From positions 1 to 48,716 of the IMG/VR virus record IMGVR_UViG_3300043466_002526: a stretch of 48,716 nt of DNA; one strand, 5' to 3'. The stretch comes from a virus. How positions within the stretch are numbered: position 1 is the first letter of the stretch; every line of letters starts with the position of its first letter. Under the pieces are notes generated by a model. That model was not told the origin of the DNA, made no database searches, and saw nothing but the letters and a program-made list of their open reading frames with translations. The position numbers and the translations under genes were made by a program. Below, piece by piece: positions 2 through 18,720 of this stretch.

Positions 2-1153
2 CAAGCAGCTGAGCTACGTGACCGTGAAAGAAGTATTTTATCCAGACTTGAGGAAGAAAAGAAAAGATTTGAGGATCATTTAAGAAGTAGTAAAAGAACT
101 ATTCCTGAAGAATTGGTTTACGAAGTCGTATCAAATATGACCAAAATTCCAATCTCTAATATCAACCTTGATGAGAGAAATAACCTTATCAATTTGAACG
201 ATAACTTAAATTCAAAGGTTATTGGTCAAGGAGAAGCGGTTACCAAAATTACCAAAGCAATCCGTAGAAATAGAATGGGTATTAAAGACCCAAATAAACC
301 AATCGGTTCATTCATTTTCTTGGGTTCGACAGGTGTTGGTAAAACATACTTGGCAAAACAATTAGCGAAAGAGATCTTTGGTAGTGAAGATAATATGATC
401 CGTGTGGACATGAGTGAATACCAAGAGAAACACACAATCTCTCGTTTGATTGGTTCACCTCCGGGATATGTTGGTCACGATGAAGGTGGTCAGTTGACAG
501 AACAAGTTAAAAACAAACCTTATTCTGTTGTATTGTTTGATGAGATTGAAAAAGCTCACAAAGACATCTTCTCAACACTTCTTCAGTTGTTAGATGATGG
601 TCATATTACAGATTCATTAGGTCGTAAGATCAACTTTAAGAATTGTTTGATCATTATGACTTCTAACATCGGTGTTAAACGTCTACAAGAGTTCGGAGCT
701 GGTGTTGGATTTAAAACGGGTAAGAGTGATGCAATCAGAGAAGAGGAGAAACGAGAAATCCTTAAAAAAGAATTAAGTAAATTTTTCGCACCTGAGTTCT
801 TGAACCGTATTGATGACGTAATCATCTTCAACTCACTTGAGAAACAACACATTGATGTGATTACAAAATTAGAAGTGGATAAGTTATTGAAGCGAGTTAG
901 TGAGAAGAAATACAATTTCACTTACGAACAGGATCTAATTGATTACATCTCAAAAGTTGGGTTTGATGAAACATTCGGAGCAAGACCAATCAAAAGAGCA
1001 ATCCAAGATAAAATTGAAGATTTAATTTCTGAAAAGATCTTGATGATGGAGATTGAGGAAAACAAAGATTATCAACTTAAAGTTGAGAATGATGAGATTA
1101 TAGTTTCCGATAAGGAAGAAAAAGTTAAAAAAACAAGAAAAAAGAAAGAATAA
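2..1153 (+). CDS. ClpC-type AAA+ unfoldase, C-terminal part (5' end outside window)
   Basis: The reading frame is open from the window edge, so the protein starts upstream. What is visible is the end of a coiled-coil middle region followed by a complete second Clp nucleotide-binding domain. It has Walker A GSTGVGKT, Walker B VVLFDEIEKAH, the pore-loop motif GYVGHDEGG, sensor-1 TSN, the arginine-finger segment FLNRIDDVI and sensor-2 GARPIKRAI. A VGF tripeptide (GAGVGFKTG) sits after sensor 1, where ClpC and ClpA carry the loop that docks on ClpP; ClpB lacks it. Hexameric unfoldases of this type thread proteins into ClpP. I infer a phage-borne unfoldase able to use the host ClpP. The tail is lysine-rich. 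The next gene follows after 47 nt with its own promoter. Confidence 0.9.
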   Translation, partial: QAAELRDRERSILSRLEEEKKRFEDHLRSSKRTIPEELVYEVVSNMTKIPISNINLDERNNLINLNDNLNSKVIGQGEAVTKITKAIRRNRMGIKDPNKPIGSFIFLGSTGVGKTYLAKQLAKEIFGSEDNMIRVDMSEYQEKHTISRLIGSPPGYVGHDEGGQLTEQVKNKPYSVVLFDEIEKAHKDIFSTLLQLLDDGHITDSLGRKINFKNCLIIMTSNIGVKRLQEFGAGVGFKTGKSDAIREEEKREILKKELSKFFAPEFLNRIDDVIIFNSLEKQHIDVITKLEVDKLLKRVSEKKYNFTYEQDLIDYISKVGFDETFGARPIKRAIQDKIEDLISEKILMMEIEENKDYQLKVENDEIIVSDKEEKVKKTRKKKE

Positions 1154-1177: not shown

Positions 1178-1185
1178 TATCTTTG
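1178..1185 (+). promoter_or_regulatory. Bacteroidota-type -7 box (TATCTTTG)
   Basis: TATCTTTG matches TAnnTTTG and lies 15 nt before the ATG at 1201. It overlaps an alternative TTG start, which argues for the downstream ATG. No clear -33 TTTG is visible. Confidence 0.5.
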
Positions 1186-1200
1186 TGGAAACAATTTGAA

Positions 1201-2223
1201 ATGGATCTAAATAAATTTAAAGAACTCTTATCTGTTCCAACCAAGACTTATAAGGAAAGTAAGATGGTGGAGTATCTAACCTCAACCATTGGTGATATGG
1301 ATGGAGTAGCTCTTACTTGTGATGAACACAATAACATATATGCGGTGAAAGGAACATTGGGTGAAGGAGAATTTTACCCAATGTTCATTTCTCATACTGA
1401 TACCGTACACGAACTTGTCGATCTAATTGACGTAAAGGAAGAATACCTTCTTCGTCCATATACTTTTGGTAAAGATTTTGGTAACGAACAAACTCTATGT
1501 TTAAAAGCATACGATAAAGACGGAAATCCAACTGGTATTGGTGGTGATGATAAATGCGGAATTTTCATTTGTTTAGAATTACTTCAAAAATTAGACAAAG
1601 TTAAAGTTGCGTTTTTCGTATCTGAAGAAACTGGTTGTCACGGATCTAAAATGGTTAATACTGAGTTCTTGAAAGATGTCGGTTATTGTGTGCAATACGA
1701 CGCACCAGGTGATCACCTGATCTCTCATAGTTGTTTTGGGACTACCTTATTCGATGTTGACGGAAAGTTCTTTAAAACCGCTTTATCGTCAATTACAAAG
1801 TCATTTGGTAATGAGATGTTTGTACAATCTCACCCATACACAGACATCATGATGATTAAACAAAAAAGTGATCTCTCATGTTTGAATATGTCTTGTGGTT
1901 ATTACAACATGCACACCAAGAATGAGTTTGTATGTTTAGATGATGTGGAGCGTGCCATCACAGCCGGTATGAATTTGGTTAAAGATCTTGGTTTACAGAA
2001 ATACGAATTCAAATACGAACCGAATAAACCAAAATTACAATATGACTTTGATTTCACAAAAGAAGAAGATGAAGATGAGGTTATTCACAATTTGGAATCG
2101 GTTGATGTTATTGAGATTGCAAGTGGTGTTATCATTGCGGATCCTTATGATGGGAATGAATTTTATATTGGTGATGATGACGGACTCAAACTATATGAGA
2201 TCCTCAAAGAACGTTATGGTTAA
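1201..2223 (+). CDS. M20-like metallopeptidase (peptidase T/ArgE-like)
   Basis: A 340-residue protein with the di-zinc signature order of the M20 family. SHTDTVH carries the first ligand and its Asp, GGDDKCG the bridging Asp, SEETGCHGS the general-base Glu and ligand, YDAPGD another acidic ligand, and MHTKNEFV the C-terminal His. Relatives remove amino acids from di- and tripeptides in the cytoplasm; the substrate here is unknown. The lid domain appears short compared with peptidase T (about 400 residues). The ATG at 1201 is preferred over TTG at 1183 because a promoter-like TATCTTTG overlaps the latter. Lying behind a Clp unfoldase, it could recycle peptides during infection, but that is inference. 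Confidence 0.8.
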   Translation: MDLNKFKELLSVPTKTYKESKMVEYLTSTIGDMDGVALTCDEHNNIYAVKGTLGEGEFYPMFISHTDTVHELVDLIDVKEEYLLRPYTFGKDFGNEQTLCLKAYDKDGNPTGIGGDDKCGIFICLELLQKLDKVKVAFFVSEETGCHGSKMVNTEFLKDVGYCVQYDAPGDHLISHSCFGTTLFDVDGKFFKTALSSITKSFGNEMFVQSHPYTDIMMIKQKSDLSCLNMSCGYYNMHTKNEFVCLDDVERAITAGMNLVKDLGLQKYEFKYEPNKPKLQYDFDFTKEEDEDEVIHNLESVDVIEIASGVIIADPYDGNEFYIGDDDGLKLYEILKERYG

Positions 2224-3372: not shown

Positions 3373-3403
3373 TTGGATATTACAAATCTTTGTATTATAT
3401 TTG
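3373..3403 (+). promoter_or_regulatory. Promoter of the tmRNA (TTG-N20-TATATTTG)
   Basis: TTG at 3373 and TATATTTG at 3396-3403 are separated by 20 nt, matching the Bacteroidota sigma-A layout. Transcription would begin about 20 nt before the mature tmRNA 5' end, leaving a leader for RNase P. Confidence 0.65.
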
Positions 3404-3425: not shown

Positions 3426-3816
3426 GGGGGCGTTTTTGGATTTGACAGGTATTGGCTGAGGAATAAGGGCATGTAGGGACTAAGTTAATCTCTTTAAAAA
3501 CTGACTTGGAAAACAACTGGCAATGTGCTAAACAAAATGGAAACTCTTGGATTAGTAAGAGGTTCTGAAGTTACTGTAGCTTAAGATAAGTTCGGAAACG
3601 GGGGGTCGGCAGACATATAACCTAGCAACAGAAGTCGTAGTTTGATAGAGCACACCGGATGGCTCTCTAAATCCGATTCGGGACCATTGGTTGTTGATTT
3701 ACGATGGTGAAGAACAAATCAACTATTTTGGGATATTAGAAAATATCAACCTAAACATGTAGTCCTTATCTGACAGGATATTATGGACCGGAGTTCGACT
3801 CTCCGCACCTCCACCA
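3426..3816 (+). ncRNA. ssrA: tmRNA (transfer-messenger RNA)
   Basis: The RNA starts GGGGGCG and ends with a T-arm (GGAGTTCGACTCTCC) and an acceptor strand CACCTCC-A-CCA that pairs with the 5' end apart from one mismatch; the CCA is encoded. At ~390 nt it has tmRNA size. Two tag frames are possible. One runs from GGC at 3519 to TAA at 3582-3584 and encodes 21 residues beginning GNVLNK and ending SEVTVA. It parallels the Gly-initiated tags of Bacteroidota but is longer and lacks the usual ALAA end. The other begins at GCT 3527 and ends at TGA 3566 (AKQNGNSWISKRF). I prefer the first. tmRNA with SmpB rescues stalled ribosomes; a phage copy could tag proteins differently from the host. Confidence 0.92.
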
Positions 3817-5154: not shown

Positions 5155-6714
5155 TTATCCGTAAGTTTCCTCACTTCCTTCCTTATCAGTTGTTCCAACA
5201 CCTTTAGTTATTGTTTTAGTCCCGGCTTTAGTTGCCCCTATAATTTTTTCAGCTTTCTCAATCCCAGTTTCAGCTTTTTTAATACCTTTTGCTAACTTTA
5301 CAGTTTCTTTTCCGGTTTTTTTAGTTCCTTTTACAGAATGTGTAGCAACAACACCATTCATAATAACATCAAAAGTGTCACAATATGTTTTACCAGCTTG
5401 ACAAATCAAGGGTCTTACATTTTCTGTTGTTGCATTAGAACCAAGTTCAAATATTTTATCTTTAATCCAACTAACAGTTTTTTCATTTAACTTACTCATT
5501 ATATCTTTACCCAGAACATTTTCAATGGATTGGAATATTGGTCCTAAATTTGTTTTTGCGTATGTTGTAAAATATGCTGTTCCCTTTTGTAGTAATGTTG
5601 TTGTTTTTGGTATTGTTTTGGTTACTACTTTTCCTGCTGTTCCTTTTATTGCATTTACAATCTCATCCAAAAAAGCTGTAATCTTATTTAAAGATCCCAA
5701 TAACATATTACCAAAATTCTTTAGAAAGGATAATTTTGTAATTAACCAATTTACACCTTTTTTAATACCATCAATAACCCACTTTGCACCACCGGCGATT
5801 TTACCAACAATACTATTAAAAAATTGACTTAATTTTGGGAATTTTTGTGCCATTTTTCCAAAAAAACCAACTGCGGTTTTTTCAGCACCAAGAACTGCTT
5901 TAGTCCCTTGTAGTGGTTTTAAAGAGGTCTGTAATCCAATTCCAGACAATAATAATGAAAATGTGTCTAAAATTGCATCAAAAAAACTACCTTTACCTTT
6001 ATCCATTTGAACAAAATCCCAAGCTGTTAAAGCACCATAAATTAACATATTTGCCGCTTGCCCACCTGGTATAGCGGTTAAAATTAATGTTGCAACAGTT
6101 CCACCAATACCATTTACAATATCCCTAAATCCTTCCATTATTTGTTCTAAAGATAAACTTCTTAAAGAATCAATTGCTTTATCAGCACCTTTTACTACCA
6201 TACCAACTGGTGTATATCCCGCAACCTTTAGTAATACATTTCTATTAGCACCGGCATAACCCATTTTCTCAAGATTGTTCCAGATATTACCGTATTCACT
6301 ATCAAAATCACTCATTTCCGCATTCAACCAAGACTTTAAATTTGGATATTGTTTCCAACTTGCGATATACTTGTTTAAAGCATCAAGAGTTTCTTTATTC
6401 TGAATTTTTTTGATTGCAGCTAAAGCTACACCTTCGTTTGTCCCATCATTATCTTTCAAATCCTTATCACCATCAACATCAAAAGCCTTTAATAATTCAC
6501 CAAAAATTGTATAAGCTGTTTTATTGGCACTTGCTTGGATTTTTTGTTTAGCAGTTTTAATTTGTTCTGGTGTTAATTGTTGAGGTTGTGTTTGTTCAAA
6601 TAAAGTTTGTTCGGATATTTGAACTTCTTTTTGATCTTCAATACTTTTATTAATATCAAAATTCATTAAGTAGTTAATTCTATTGACTTCTTCTATTATT
6701 AAAGATTTTTTCAT
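5155..6714 (-). CDS. Leader protein with large hydrophobic core (candidate injected membrane-active protein)
   Basis: 519 residues starting MKKSLIIEEVNRINYLM. A [I]-S-E motif near residue 35 (VQISE) is followed by a Gln/Thr-rich stretch. Residues ~190-290 hold strongly hydrophobic, glycine-rich segments (for example GGTVATLILTAIPGGQAANM). Basic amphipathic segments follow, then a Lys/Thr/Gly-rich C-terminus. The hydrophobic module (MEGFRDIV... LILTAIPGG... WDFVQMDKGK) is paralogous to that of the gene at 45910. The ATG at 6714 follows the ATATTTAT motif; the longer in-frame start would run across the terminator at 6748. Membrane insertion or pore formation during DNA entry is a guess. Confidence 0.7.
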   Translation of the reverse strand: MKKSLIIEEVNRINYLMNFDINKSIEDQKEVQISEQTLFEQTQPQQLTPEQIKTAKQKIQASANKTAYTIFGELLKAFDVDGDKDLKDNDGTNEGVALAAIKKIQNKETLDALNKYIASWKQYPNLKSWLNAEMSDFDSEYGNIWNNLEKMGYAGANRNVLLKVAGYTPVGMVVKGADKAIDSLRSLSLEQIMEGFRDIVNGIGGTVATLILTAIPGGQAANMLIYGALTAWDFVQMDKGKGSFFDAILDTFSLLLSGIGLQTSLKPLQGTKAVLGAEKTAVGFFGKMAQKFPKLSQFFNSIVGKIAGGAKWVIDGIKKGVNWLITKLSFLKNFGNMLLGSLNKITAFLDEIVNAIKGTAGKVVTKTIPKTTTLLQKGTAYFTTYAKTNLGPIFQSIENVLGKDIMSKLNEKTVSWIKDKIFELGSNATTENVRPLICQAGKTYCDTFDVIMNGVVATHSVKGTKKTGKETVKLAKGIKKAETGIEKAEKIIGATKAGTKTITKGVGTTDKEGSEETYG

Positions 6715-6747
6715 ATATTGTATAAAATATAAATATATGATATATAC

Positions 6748-6773
6748 AAAAAAAGGATAACCAACCGTTATCC
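6748..6773 (-). terminator. Rho-independent terminator of the large ncRNA
   Basis: On the minus strand GGATAAC and GTTATCC pair around GGTTG and are followed by seven T. It closes the transcription unit that starts near 7707. Confidence 0.8.
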
Positions 6774-7707
6774 CCAATTTTTTTTTCAATAAGTACTTAG
6801 ATTTTTAAAGATAAGCCTGAGATTACAGCTTGGTTTGAGAACCTTTTGAAGGATTATTTTTTTCCCTTCGTATCCACCATCTTTTGAATGGTATTTCTCA
6901 GTGACGGTCTTTTAGGTTTACCACTCCTTGAGGTTTGAATTACTCTCACCTTACTTGACTCTTTCCGAGGATGCCTCCCCAGTTCGTCCTTGCGGGACTA
7001 AAGGTTTTTCGGATAATTACACTTAGACTTGGGATCCTTGTGTGCAATGAACGGCTCATTACTATGTAGTCACCTTTCATCCAAACCTGACGGACACTTT
7101 TCCTTTCTGTAGTTTAATAATGGTCTTATTACTTTCCATAAAGTATTTGTGTTGTGGATTGTGAAAGTAGTGGTCCGTCAACCAAGCCAACTCATCTTTT
7201 GAACGAGTCGATACTTAACTACTCTCTGAAATGTCCCCATTTCCATATTTCAAGACTACTTCATTACAGGGTTTTGGTAAACCACCGTAAGGGAAGGTAG
7301 CGACACCACTCGTTCTCCTTCTTACCTTGTGGTACTTCCACTTGGTTTTAAGTAACCTATTATATTGGAACACGCAATATCAAAGTTGGATGACTTTAAG
7401 TTTTGCAATATCCCTACGGGTTATTCTTATTGGTGTTCCCACCTCAAACAGACGACCCACATCGCCAGTTTATTTTGACTCACTCTTTACAGCGTTGCCC
7501 TCAATACTAAAGCCAAAATAATATCCCGCTTGTGTACTCAAGCTCCCAAAGAAGCCGCAAATCATTTACACAAATGATTCACTTTATCCCACTTTCGTGG
7601 TTTATTTTCTGGACTATACACGGCCCAATATCTTTATCAGTTTCATTTCTTACTCCTGAAAGGATAATCTAAATTTTCAAAGAACTTTTTCGGACTTTTC
7701 CGATTTT
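6774..7707 (-). ncRNA. Large structured non-coding RNA (~0.95 kb), GOLLD/ROOL-like candidate
   Basis: No convincing gene lies in this ~900-nt stretch on either strand, base composition is less AT-rich than the neighbours, and the region is bounded by its own promoter and terminator. On the minus strand several strong local helices are visible. They include CCAC-GAAA-GTGG, AATCATTT-GTGT-AAATGATT, GCTTG/CAAGC, GAAATG-GGGA-CATTTC (GNRA loop), GTCC-CGCAA-GGAC, GAGG-CAT-CCTC, and a long-range TGACGGAC/GTCCGTCA pair. A boxA-like GTTCTTTGA sits near the 5' end. Size, phage context and closeness to a tRNA array fit the giant ornate RNA classes GOLLD and ROOL, but I cannot align it to either. Function unknown. 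Confidence 0.7.
7677..7685 (-). promoter_or_regulatory. boxA-like antitermination element (GTTCTTTGA)
   Basis: GTTCTTTGAAAA lies about 20 nt after the predicted start of the large RNA. It matches four further copies in the tRNA array and resembles the boxA of Bacteroidota rRNA leaders, where NusB/S10 bind. Confidence 0.5.
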
Positions 7708-7713
7708 GTTTTA

Positions 7714-7745
7714 CAAAGTTAAGACATTTATTTTGATTTGTCAAG
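7714..7745 (-). promoter_or_regulatory. Promoter of the large ncRNA (CTTG-N20-TAACTTTG)
   Basis: On the minus strand CTTG is followed 20 nt later by TAACTTTG, the Bacteroidota sigma-A layout. Confidence 0.65.
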
Positions 7746-7761
7746 TACTTTGTAAGTTTTT

Positions 7762-7911
7762 TTAATTTTTTTCAATGTAAAGCTTACCACTACCATATTT
7801 ATTTACCATAATTTTGGCAAACTCTAAATTAGGTGTATAAACTTTTTGACCTTTATCGTTGATGTATCCGTAGATTTCAACTTCAACTACTTCATTTTGT
7901 GTTTCACTCAT
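7762..7911 (-). CDS. Small 49-aa protein
   Basis: 49 residues (MSETQNEVVEVEIYGYINDK...), acidic N-terminal half and a Lys/Gly/Tyr-rich second half ending LYIEKN. No recognised domain. A host-type promoter TTG-N20-TATGTTTG ends about 20 nt before the ATG, supporting a real gene. It lies between the large ncRNA promoter and the M15 peptidase gene. Confidence 0.6.
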   Translation of the reverse strand: MSETQNEVVEVEIYGYINDKGQKVYTPNLEFAKIMVNKYGSGKLYIEKN

Positions 7912-12862: not shown

Positions 12863-12967
12863 TCTTTTTTTAATTTTCTTTTCAAGTTTTCTTACAAAAT
12901 CAGATTTAAAATTAGTCTTAACAAATTTAACTTTCGATGATTCTGAAGTACCTGGTGAACTACCCAA
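12845..12967 (-). other. Open reading fragment downstream of tnpB, possible IS flank
   Basis: A 40-codon frame without ATG (possible TTG at 12967) overlaps the tnpB stop and ends FVRKLEKKIKKRFVRIK at the array promoter. A similar basic ending (KEKFKKDLVD) precedes the twin promoter at 18741. It may be the tail of a gene cut by the insertion, or simply the end of the IS. In IS200/IS605 elements this zone beyond tnpB also encodes the omega RNA. Confidence 0.25.
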
Positions 12968-14156
12968 CCACTAAAGATGGTTGGGCTTCAGGAATCACAG
13001 ACTCACCTAATGGTAACGCCTCCTCCTGTTTTTGTTTAGTGTCCGATTCTATTCCATAACCAGACAATATGTTTATTCCTTGTTTAAGGATGTTTTTACT
13101 AGCATTTAAATCTCTATCGTGATGTTCATTACAAGAATTACAAGTCCATTCTCTGATTGAAAGATTTAAATCTTGGTATATCCATCCGCAACTAGAACAA
13201 GTTTTACTAGATGGAAAAAATCTATCAATTTTAACAAAAGATTTATCATTCCATTTTGACTTATATTCTAACATTGTATAGAACATACCTAAACTAACAT
13301 CGGACAATGATTGTGCTAATTTATGATTTTTCATCATATTTTTAACTGACAAATCTTCTACAGATATAATGTCGTGGTTTTTGACAATTTCTGTAGATAT
13401 TTTATGTAAGTAATCTTTTCTGATATTAGTTATTTTTTCGTGAGTTAAAGATAATTTAATTTTTTGTTTTTGTCCGCTATTACTACCTTTTTGTTTTTTA
13501 GATAGTTGTCTTTGTTGGTATTTAAGTTTTTTTAATTTTGATTTTAAAACTTTAATATTCTCATAGGTTTTTCCGTCTGAAAGTATTGCCAAATCTTTTA
13601 TACCAGTATCAACACCTACTTTTGAACCTGTTTTATCAAATGGTTTGTAATTAACTTCACAAGTTATACTAACATAATATTTTCCTGTTGTTGATTTGGT
13701 AATTGTTGCAAATAATATTTCACCTTCTATTTCTCTGTGTAAGTTTATTTTAATACCTTCTTTAAATTTAGGGATAACTAACTTTCCTTCATTGATTAAA
13801 GCGTTTTGAGGTATTTTGAAACTTTGTTTGTCGTATTTTGATTTGAATCTTGGAAATTTACTTTGTTTATTAAAAAAGTTTTTATATGCCGAATCAATAT
13901 TTCTAATTGCCGATTGTAAAGATTGTGAATTTATTTCCTTTAACCAATCAAAATCTTCTTCTTTTTTTAAATCGGTTAAAGTTCTTGCATTATCATAATA
14001 ATTTAATGAAGTTTTTTCGTTTAAATATTTTTCTTTTCTTTCGTGAAGAAATTTATTAAACACAAATCTACAAGCACCAAAATGTTTTGATAACAAAACA
14101 ATTTGTTCCGATGTCGGCTCAATTCTAAACTTATATGATTTGTGAATAATCTTCAT
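12960..14156 (-). CDS. tnpB: TnpB, IS200/IS605-family RNA-guided nuclease
   Basis: 398 residues with the full TnpB layout. There is an N-terminal domain (MKIIHKSYKFRIEPTSEQ), a RuvC-like domain with VGVDTGIKDL (first Asp), ISVEDLSVKNM (Glu), the zinc finger CSSCGW...CNSC, and HDRDLNASKNI (last Asp). TnpB is a guide-RNA nuclease that helps the element persist. The catalytic residues look intact. A hairpin CCCAACCA/TGGTTGGG lies at the 3' end of the gene (12963-12985), where the element's right end and omega RNA are expected. Unusually, the phage promoter motif AGATATTTATAA directly precedes the start. Confidence 0.95.
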   Translation of the reverse strand: MKIIHKSYKFRIEPTSEQIVLLSKHFGACRFVFNKFLHERKEKYLNEKTSLNYYDNARTLTDLKKEEDFDWLKEINSQSLQSAIRNIDSAYKNFFNKQSKFPRFKSKYDKQSFKIPQNALINEGKLVIPKFKEGIKINLHREIEGEILFATITKSTTGKYYVSITCEVNYKPFDKTGSKVGVDTGIKDLAILSDGKTYENIKVLKSKLKKLKYQQRQLSKKQKGSNSGQKQKIKLSLTHEKITNIRKDYLHKISTEIVKNHDIISVEDLSVKNMMKNHKLAQSLSDVSLGMFYTMLEYKSKWNDKSFVKIDRFFPSSKTCSSCGWIYQDLNLSIREWTCNSCNEHHDRDLNASKNILKQGINILSGYGIESDTKQKQEEALPLGESVIPEAQPSLVVG

Positions 14157-15187: not shown

Positions 15188-15268
15188 GAACTACCCATAG
15201 GATTCGAACCTACAACCCTTGGGCCGAAGTAGACCCATGTGCAACCCAAGTTTACACCATAAGTAGTT
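15188..15268 (-). tRNA. tRNA, isotype uncertain
   Basis: Acceptor AACTACT/GGTAGTT, D-arm GTGT-AAACTTGGGTT-GCAC and T-arm GTAGG-TTCGAAT-CCTAT are present. The anticodon hairpin TGGG-TCTACTTCGG-CCCA has a loop longer than 7 nt. TAC (Val) would be in register only with C at position 33. Confidence 0.6.
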
Positions 15269-18711: not shown

Positions 18712-18720
18712 TCAAAGAAC
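18712..18720 (-). promoter_or_regulatory. boxA-like element (GTTCTTTGA)
   Basis: GTTCTTTGAAATATTGG, about 20 nt after the promoter at 18741; the classic position for boxA in a stable-RNA leader. Confidence 0.6.

Follow-up and report, generated by a model that had tools for sequence, protein, structure and literature searches.

What is the gene-less unit on the minus strand at 7708-6748 of the virus record IMGVR_UViG_3300043466_002526, which we analyzed over 48,716 nt (henceforth the window)? The earlier note had read it as a divergent member of the GOLLD or ROOL RNAs or as a new class. The Rfam covariance-model scan for GOLLD and ROOL that it suggested identified a full-length GOLLD RNA of ~960 nt at 7708-6748 (-). 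The GOLLD model RF02032 matched at 7226-6814 (-) with 320.9 bits (E 3e-91), against a gathering score of 150 bits. The match was complete, running from the first to the last of model positions 1-416 without truncation, and 93 of the 98 Rfam pairs mapped onto the window sequence. RF02032 covers the conserved 3′ domain only, and the 5′ domain lies outside the Rfam model. The setting also agrees with GOLLD: the source is a virus record of 48.7 kb, consistent with a phage or prophage origin, and ~20 tRNAs lie nearby, at 11.8-27.7 kb of the window. The region has a close counterpart in a 257-kb contig (the sister contig, L290). We regard it as virtually certain that the unit is GOLLD RNA. Judged by its sequence, it is a new representative of a described RNA family and, at 320.9 bits over the full model, not a very divergent one; of the earlier proposal, GOLLD stood, and ROOL and a new class were rejected.

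GOLLD occurs widely among environmental phage contigs and there has promoters of the Bacteroidota type: two consensus DNA patterns, by which GOLLD loci were collected from viral contigs, each matched more than 100 stretches, a lower bound for one of them, and one further DNA pattern scan gave no match. Comparison with 33 relatives bore out the promoter that the earlier note had described as CTTG followed by a 20-nt spacer. Its -33 element TTG (in CTTG; 7744-7742, minus strand) is separated by 20 nt from a -7 element of the Bacteroidota type TAnnTTTG, TAACTTTG, at 7721-7714 (-), which would place the start of transcription near 7708. The window contains 20 matches to the loose promoter pattern where 8.6 ± 3.3 would be expected, so that the pattern alone is weak; the promoter call counts because TTG-N18-21-TAnnTTTG is kept in 33/33 GOLLD relatives, and not because of the pattern match. 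A leader hairpin, TCGG-AAAAGT-CCGA, is predicted at 7703-7690 (-), and its stem recurs as CGG/CCG or CAGG/CCTG in many relatives.

The boxA-like leader was likewise confirmed. The element GTTCTTTGAAA lies at 7685-7675 (-), and all 33 relatives carry GTTCTTT[GA]A, as GTTCTTTGA in 31 and GTTCTTTAA in the other 2. There are four copies of GTTCTTTGAAA in the window, all on the minus strand, against 0.22 expected. In three Bacteroidota genomes, part of those tested, GTTCTTTGA was found 82-146 nt upstream of 16S, and GTTCTTTAA precedes 16S at two loci of another Bacteroidota genome. This 16S-leader boxA stands behind a GOLLD-type promoter, and it was absent from the other Bacteroidota loci tested. 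The natural reading seems to be that this long untranslated RNA has an antitermination leader resembling that of rRNA: the host polymerase would transcribe the GOLLD gene, and boxA-type antitermination would carry it through ~960 nt of untranslated structured RNA.

Elsewhere in the window, exact GTTCTTTGAAA sites were located at 20136-20126 (-), 17 nt before a tRNA-Leu, and at 12597-12587 (-), after a tRNA-Glu. The boxA at 18720 has a GOLLD-like promoter and leader before it and a tRNA after it; the unit concerned, 18760-18290 (-), comprises ~300 nt without a minus-strand gene and a tRNA at its end, and is possibly another structured RNA. The tRNA region also holds an IS605 OrfB/TnpB-like transposase at 12960-14156 (-) and, at 15188-15267 (-), a tRNA for which ARAGORN gave an anticodon of four bases (actt); it may be a frameshift-reading tRNA or a degenerate one.

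At the other end of the GOLLD unit, the intrinsic terminator proposed earlier was found as a stem at 6775-6753 (-) with a T run behind it that extends to about 6747. The unit was also said to hold no gene, a claim that a coding frame conserved in relatives would contradict. No such frame was kept across the 33 GOLLD relatives: the longest stop-free stretch had a median of 89 codons, and 202 of 216 deletions were not multiples of three. Taken as a whole, the locus is best explained by a complete GOLLD gene in a large phage, with a Bacteroidota host probable, an explanation that we hold with high confidence.

The structure was evaluated on 33 diverged full-length GOLLD sequences, whose body lengths, 872-955 nt, all exceed 800 nt. 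The 5′ part of the structure was derived from the relatives with RNAalifold, and the 3′ part is Rfam's own. Among the 218 pairs, 95% were paired, compared with 82.4% in shuffles and ~40% when the pairs were slid, a control that somewhat favors the 5′ structure because of its derivation from the relatives. Double-sided changes occurred in 143 of the 218 pairs against 87.5 in partner shuffles, and the covariation score was 0.439 against 0.193 in controls. An unbiased covariation scan found the GOLLD helices independently, with 86% canonical pairs among the top 50 column pairs compared with a background of 14%. The RNA also folded more stably than its shuffles (z -3.2). The covariance analysis with metagenomic relatives that had been suggested thus gave very strong support to a structured non-coding RNA. 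As for the long-range 8-bp helix of the earlier note, which came with no precise position, several long-range helices proved real, among them 7529-7522 with 7423-7416 and 7088-7079 with 6940-6931.

The 5′ domain, at 7621-7228 (-), contains 18 helices that covary among the 33 sequences. A profile of this domain matched 186 loci, compared with 211 loci with the 3′ domain, and the junction between the two fell at the identical point in 174 of 178 loci. Hence the 5′ domain is an integral part of the GOLLD unit, continuous with the 3′ domain, and the covariation supports a domain that Rfam omits.

Three other identities were weighed against these data. A decayed GOLLD copy that has lost folding or expression is very improbable: pairing across the relatives drops to 65% in one helix of the Rfam structure (alignment columns 1149-1154 with 1160-1166), but promoter, boxA and terminator are all intact and the score of the window sequence is on a par with those of its relatives. 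A new giant phage RNA class unrelated to any described would draw on the fact that Rfam models the 3′ half only and that no family reaches its cut-off on the 5′ domain; it was rejected, and we give it hardly any credence, because the 3′ half matches GOLLD over all 416 model positions and the 5′ domain forms one unit with it in most GOLLD loci. ROOL or another known giant RNA has a practically negligible chance, for although ROOL is likewise phage-borne, found near tRNAs and cage-forming (PMC12286853), its covariance model gave no match in the whole window at the gathering threshold, nor any within 6700-7800 when E was relaxed to 1, and this identity was ruled out. A Sphinx_2 match of 19.6 bits, under its cut-off, was set aside.

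The GOLLD RNA env-38 forms a hollow RNA-only cage of 14 identical copies, empty apart from a disordered linker (PMC12286853). In the window, an A-rich variable linker at 7162-7105 (-), of 57 nt here and 40-62 nt in relatives, appears to correspond to the linker inside that cage. Around it, covariation revealed contacts that the Rfam structure does not mark. A pseudoknot joins the bulge GACGGA (7179-7174, minus strand) to UCCGUC (7094-7089, minus strand); all 6 of its pairs show double changes, and it is 99.5% paired across the 33 sequences. The linker-flank GG at 7103-7102 (-) pairs with the hairpin-loop CC at 7032-7031 (-), and this GG/CC is swapped to GC/GC in 11 of 33 sequences, all of them paired; going by the published description (PMC12286853), it is probably the intermolecular bridge B7 of env-38 (L20 with J13/15). 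A palindromic GC in the loop CGCAAG, at 6993-6992 (-), is invariant in 33/33 sequences, hence without covariation, and is a candidate, probably, for the self-kissing L21a contact B8. Both equations, with B7 and with B8, stay provisional because they rest on layout and numbering. The covariation of one pair, 6872 with 6823, would fit the published contact between the last hairpin loop and a linker. We discarded a further possible contact (7087-7086 with 7054-7053), whose bases already pair in an Rfam helix and whose signal came from one outlying clade. By analogy with env-38, the 5′ domain would form a cap and the 3′ domain a ring, and 14 such RNAs would assemble into a hollow cage. Homology to one solved member, together with the conserved contacts, makes it likely that the GOLLD here assembles as an RNA cage.

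The part of this locus that a specialist may not expect is a phage tmRNA at 3426-3816 (+), 3 kb from GOLLD and convergent with it, that is, tail-to-tail. It scored 102 bits against the RF00023 gathering score of 47, and its 3′ CCA is encoded (CCACCA). The tag frame lies at about 3519-3584 (+) and reads GNVLNKMETLGLVRGSEVTVA; the tag has 21 residues and ends in VTVA, not in the usual LAA. A promoter-like TTG-N20-TATATTTG precedes the tmRNA at 3373-3403 (+) as a pattern match only. Folded as a single sequence, the tmRNA gave no informative signal (z 0.3).

On the far side of the tmRNA lie an M20/M42-like peptidase (1183-2223, plus strand), common to 17 other GOLLD-tmRNA loci, and a ClpC-like Hsp100 ATPase, common to 16 others, of which the window start leaves the C-terminal part (113-1153, plus strand). 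The two genes adjoin the tmRNA in most GOLLD-tmRNA phages (for example L290:3326-5575 (+) and L291:9556-11613 (-)) and constitute, together with it, a possible phage set for trans-translation and proteolysis. The start of the Clp ORF of the sister contig (L290:2128-5575 (+)) resembles the C-terminal part of an intein, ending in VSHN/C at the P-loop, and the ORF ahead of it may be an endonuclease; the Clp gene here may be fractured and carry a split intein. Of 45 long GOLLD records, 4 encode SmpB, the tmRNA partner, which rules it out as a constant partner; it is absent from the 257-kb sister contig and presumably supplied by the host.

We then compared coordinates across loci. A tmRNA above cut-off was present in 33 of the 45 long GOLLD records; 32 of these tmRNAs were convergent with GOLLD, about 0.1 to 3.4 kb from its 3′ end, and in one record (G017) the tmRNA lay 175 kb away. 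In the fetched loci, 77 of 207 GOLLD matches had a tmRNA nearby: 76 downstream and convergent, 1 downstream on the same strand and 0 upstream, the upstream count covering the 84 to 151 loci with upstream DNA present. Conversely, when loci were chosen by tmRNA and had at least 5 kb of sequence beyond it, a convergent GOLLD lay within 5 kb in 25 of 30. For the 36 tmRNA-chosen records without a nearby GOLLD, many of them fragments, none was found anywhere in the record in 29. ROOL as a replacement for GOLLD in tmRNA phages was discarded, as no ROOL was found in 36 tmRNA-bearing records by a search that was also silent in all control genomes. Many GOLLD records are near copies, and they were hence clustered by GOLLD identity; a tmRNA accompanied 6 of 15 testable clusters at 80% identity and 11 of 24 at 85%. 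In the literature searched, no report of the GOLLD-tmRNA pairing was found, and the original 2009 GOLLD paper, outside that search, might note the link; in those papers searched among the ones that name both RNAs, the tmRNA serves as a reference or belongs to the host, and is not described beside GOLLD.

Three side observations were made in the same loci. In L233:169-599 (+), a group I intron (374-599) lies near a tmRNA motif (169-201), Rfam finds no intact tmRNA there, and the intron may interrupt the tmRNA gene. Two GOLLD copies stand 16 kb apart in G007, the 58,992-base record of L022. A tRNA-Met(CAT) is directly downstream or directly upstream of GOLLD in L013, L025, L029, L054, L075 and L167; L008, L010, L011 and L063.

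Does this neighborhood bear on function? To our knowledge, no function has been demonstrated for GOLLD. As a GOLLD RNA, it would be expected to rise in expression during lysis. There is about an even chance that the arrangement merely reflects gene order inherited within one phage group and has no functional meaning. Among the GOLLD lineages sampled, the deeper ones (AM24, LR745206 and others) had no tmRNA beside them, so the link is not common to all GOLLDs; with the tmRNA records that lack GOLLD, this rules tmRNA out as an obligate partner. The Clp and peptidase genes beyond the tmRNA, being common to most loci, indicate that the gene order there is inherited from one ancestral arrangement, and the wide separation of the two RNAs in G017 points the same way. 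Against mere inheritance, gene content in the interval of about 0.1 to 5.6 kb that separates GOLLD from tmRNA varies by lineage, yet both RNAs and their tail-to-tail order persist. On the GOLLD tree, moreover, the tmRNA label changes 12 times within one large clade, at least 8 of the changes being forced by supported branches, with the tmRNA always on the same side and a single exception in orientation. The order may be inherited, or it may mark a phage translation module.

A role outside translation, in which the cage would serve as an RNase sink, a decoy or a structural particle packed in the virion, is rather unlikely; the env-38 cage is empty save for its disordered linker (PMC12286853), which suits such a role, and nothing speaks directly against it, but the translation-rich neighborhood favors translation. 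As the most likely role we tentatively propose that GOLLD acts on the translation machinery during infection, where it might hold or protect ribosomes, phage tRNAs or tmRNA. This is suggested by the tmRNA, the ~20 tRNAs, the ClpC-like ATPase and the peptidase encoded in the same region, and by the ribosome pull-down cited in PMC12286853. The more specific proposal, that GOLLD cages cooperate with the phage tmRNA, ClpC-like ATPase and peptidase to hold or shield ribosomes, tRNAs or tmRNA, is doubtful; if true, phage-run translation would survive stalling or host RNA-cutting defenses. A tmRNA fixed tail-to-tail with many phage GOLLDs gives the question of what the cage does a testable direction; the link, if functional, would open ribosome-rescue and tRNA-protection experiments.

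Among known systems, the tmRNA of huge phages (PMC7162821) is likewise phage-encoded and sometimes accompanied by SmpB, and the tmRNA and SmpB passages of that account leave GOLLD unmentioned. ROOL (RF03087) is, according to the literature, also a large, cage-forming phage RNA near tRNAs, but the window matches it in neither sequence nor structure. The GOLLDs of Acinetobacter phage AM24 (KY000079; 214.7 bits with RF02032) and of the 634-kb phage LR745206 (287.3 bits) score above the gathering score, as that of the window does; unlike it, neither has a tmRNA within the 16-17 kb around GOLLD, and the AM24 GOLLD sits inside a tRNA cluster. Compared with the 14-mer env-38 (PMC12286853), the window GOLLD, whose cage is putative, differs in its Bacteroidota-type promoter, its rRNA-like boxA, its occurrence in long phage contigs and its tail-to-tail tmRNA, and no tRNA was found in its linker. 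The two share a phage origin near tRNAs, a complete 3′ domain, the division into 5′ and 3′ domains, a body of ~900 nt and a variable linker. The 5′ domain may have the env-38 fold, what agrees being the domain layout, and, by description, the covarying loop-linker contact and the palindromic GC loop probably match bridges B7 and B8.
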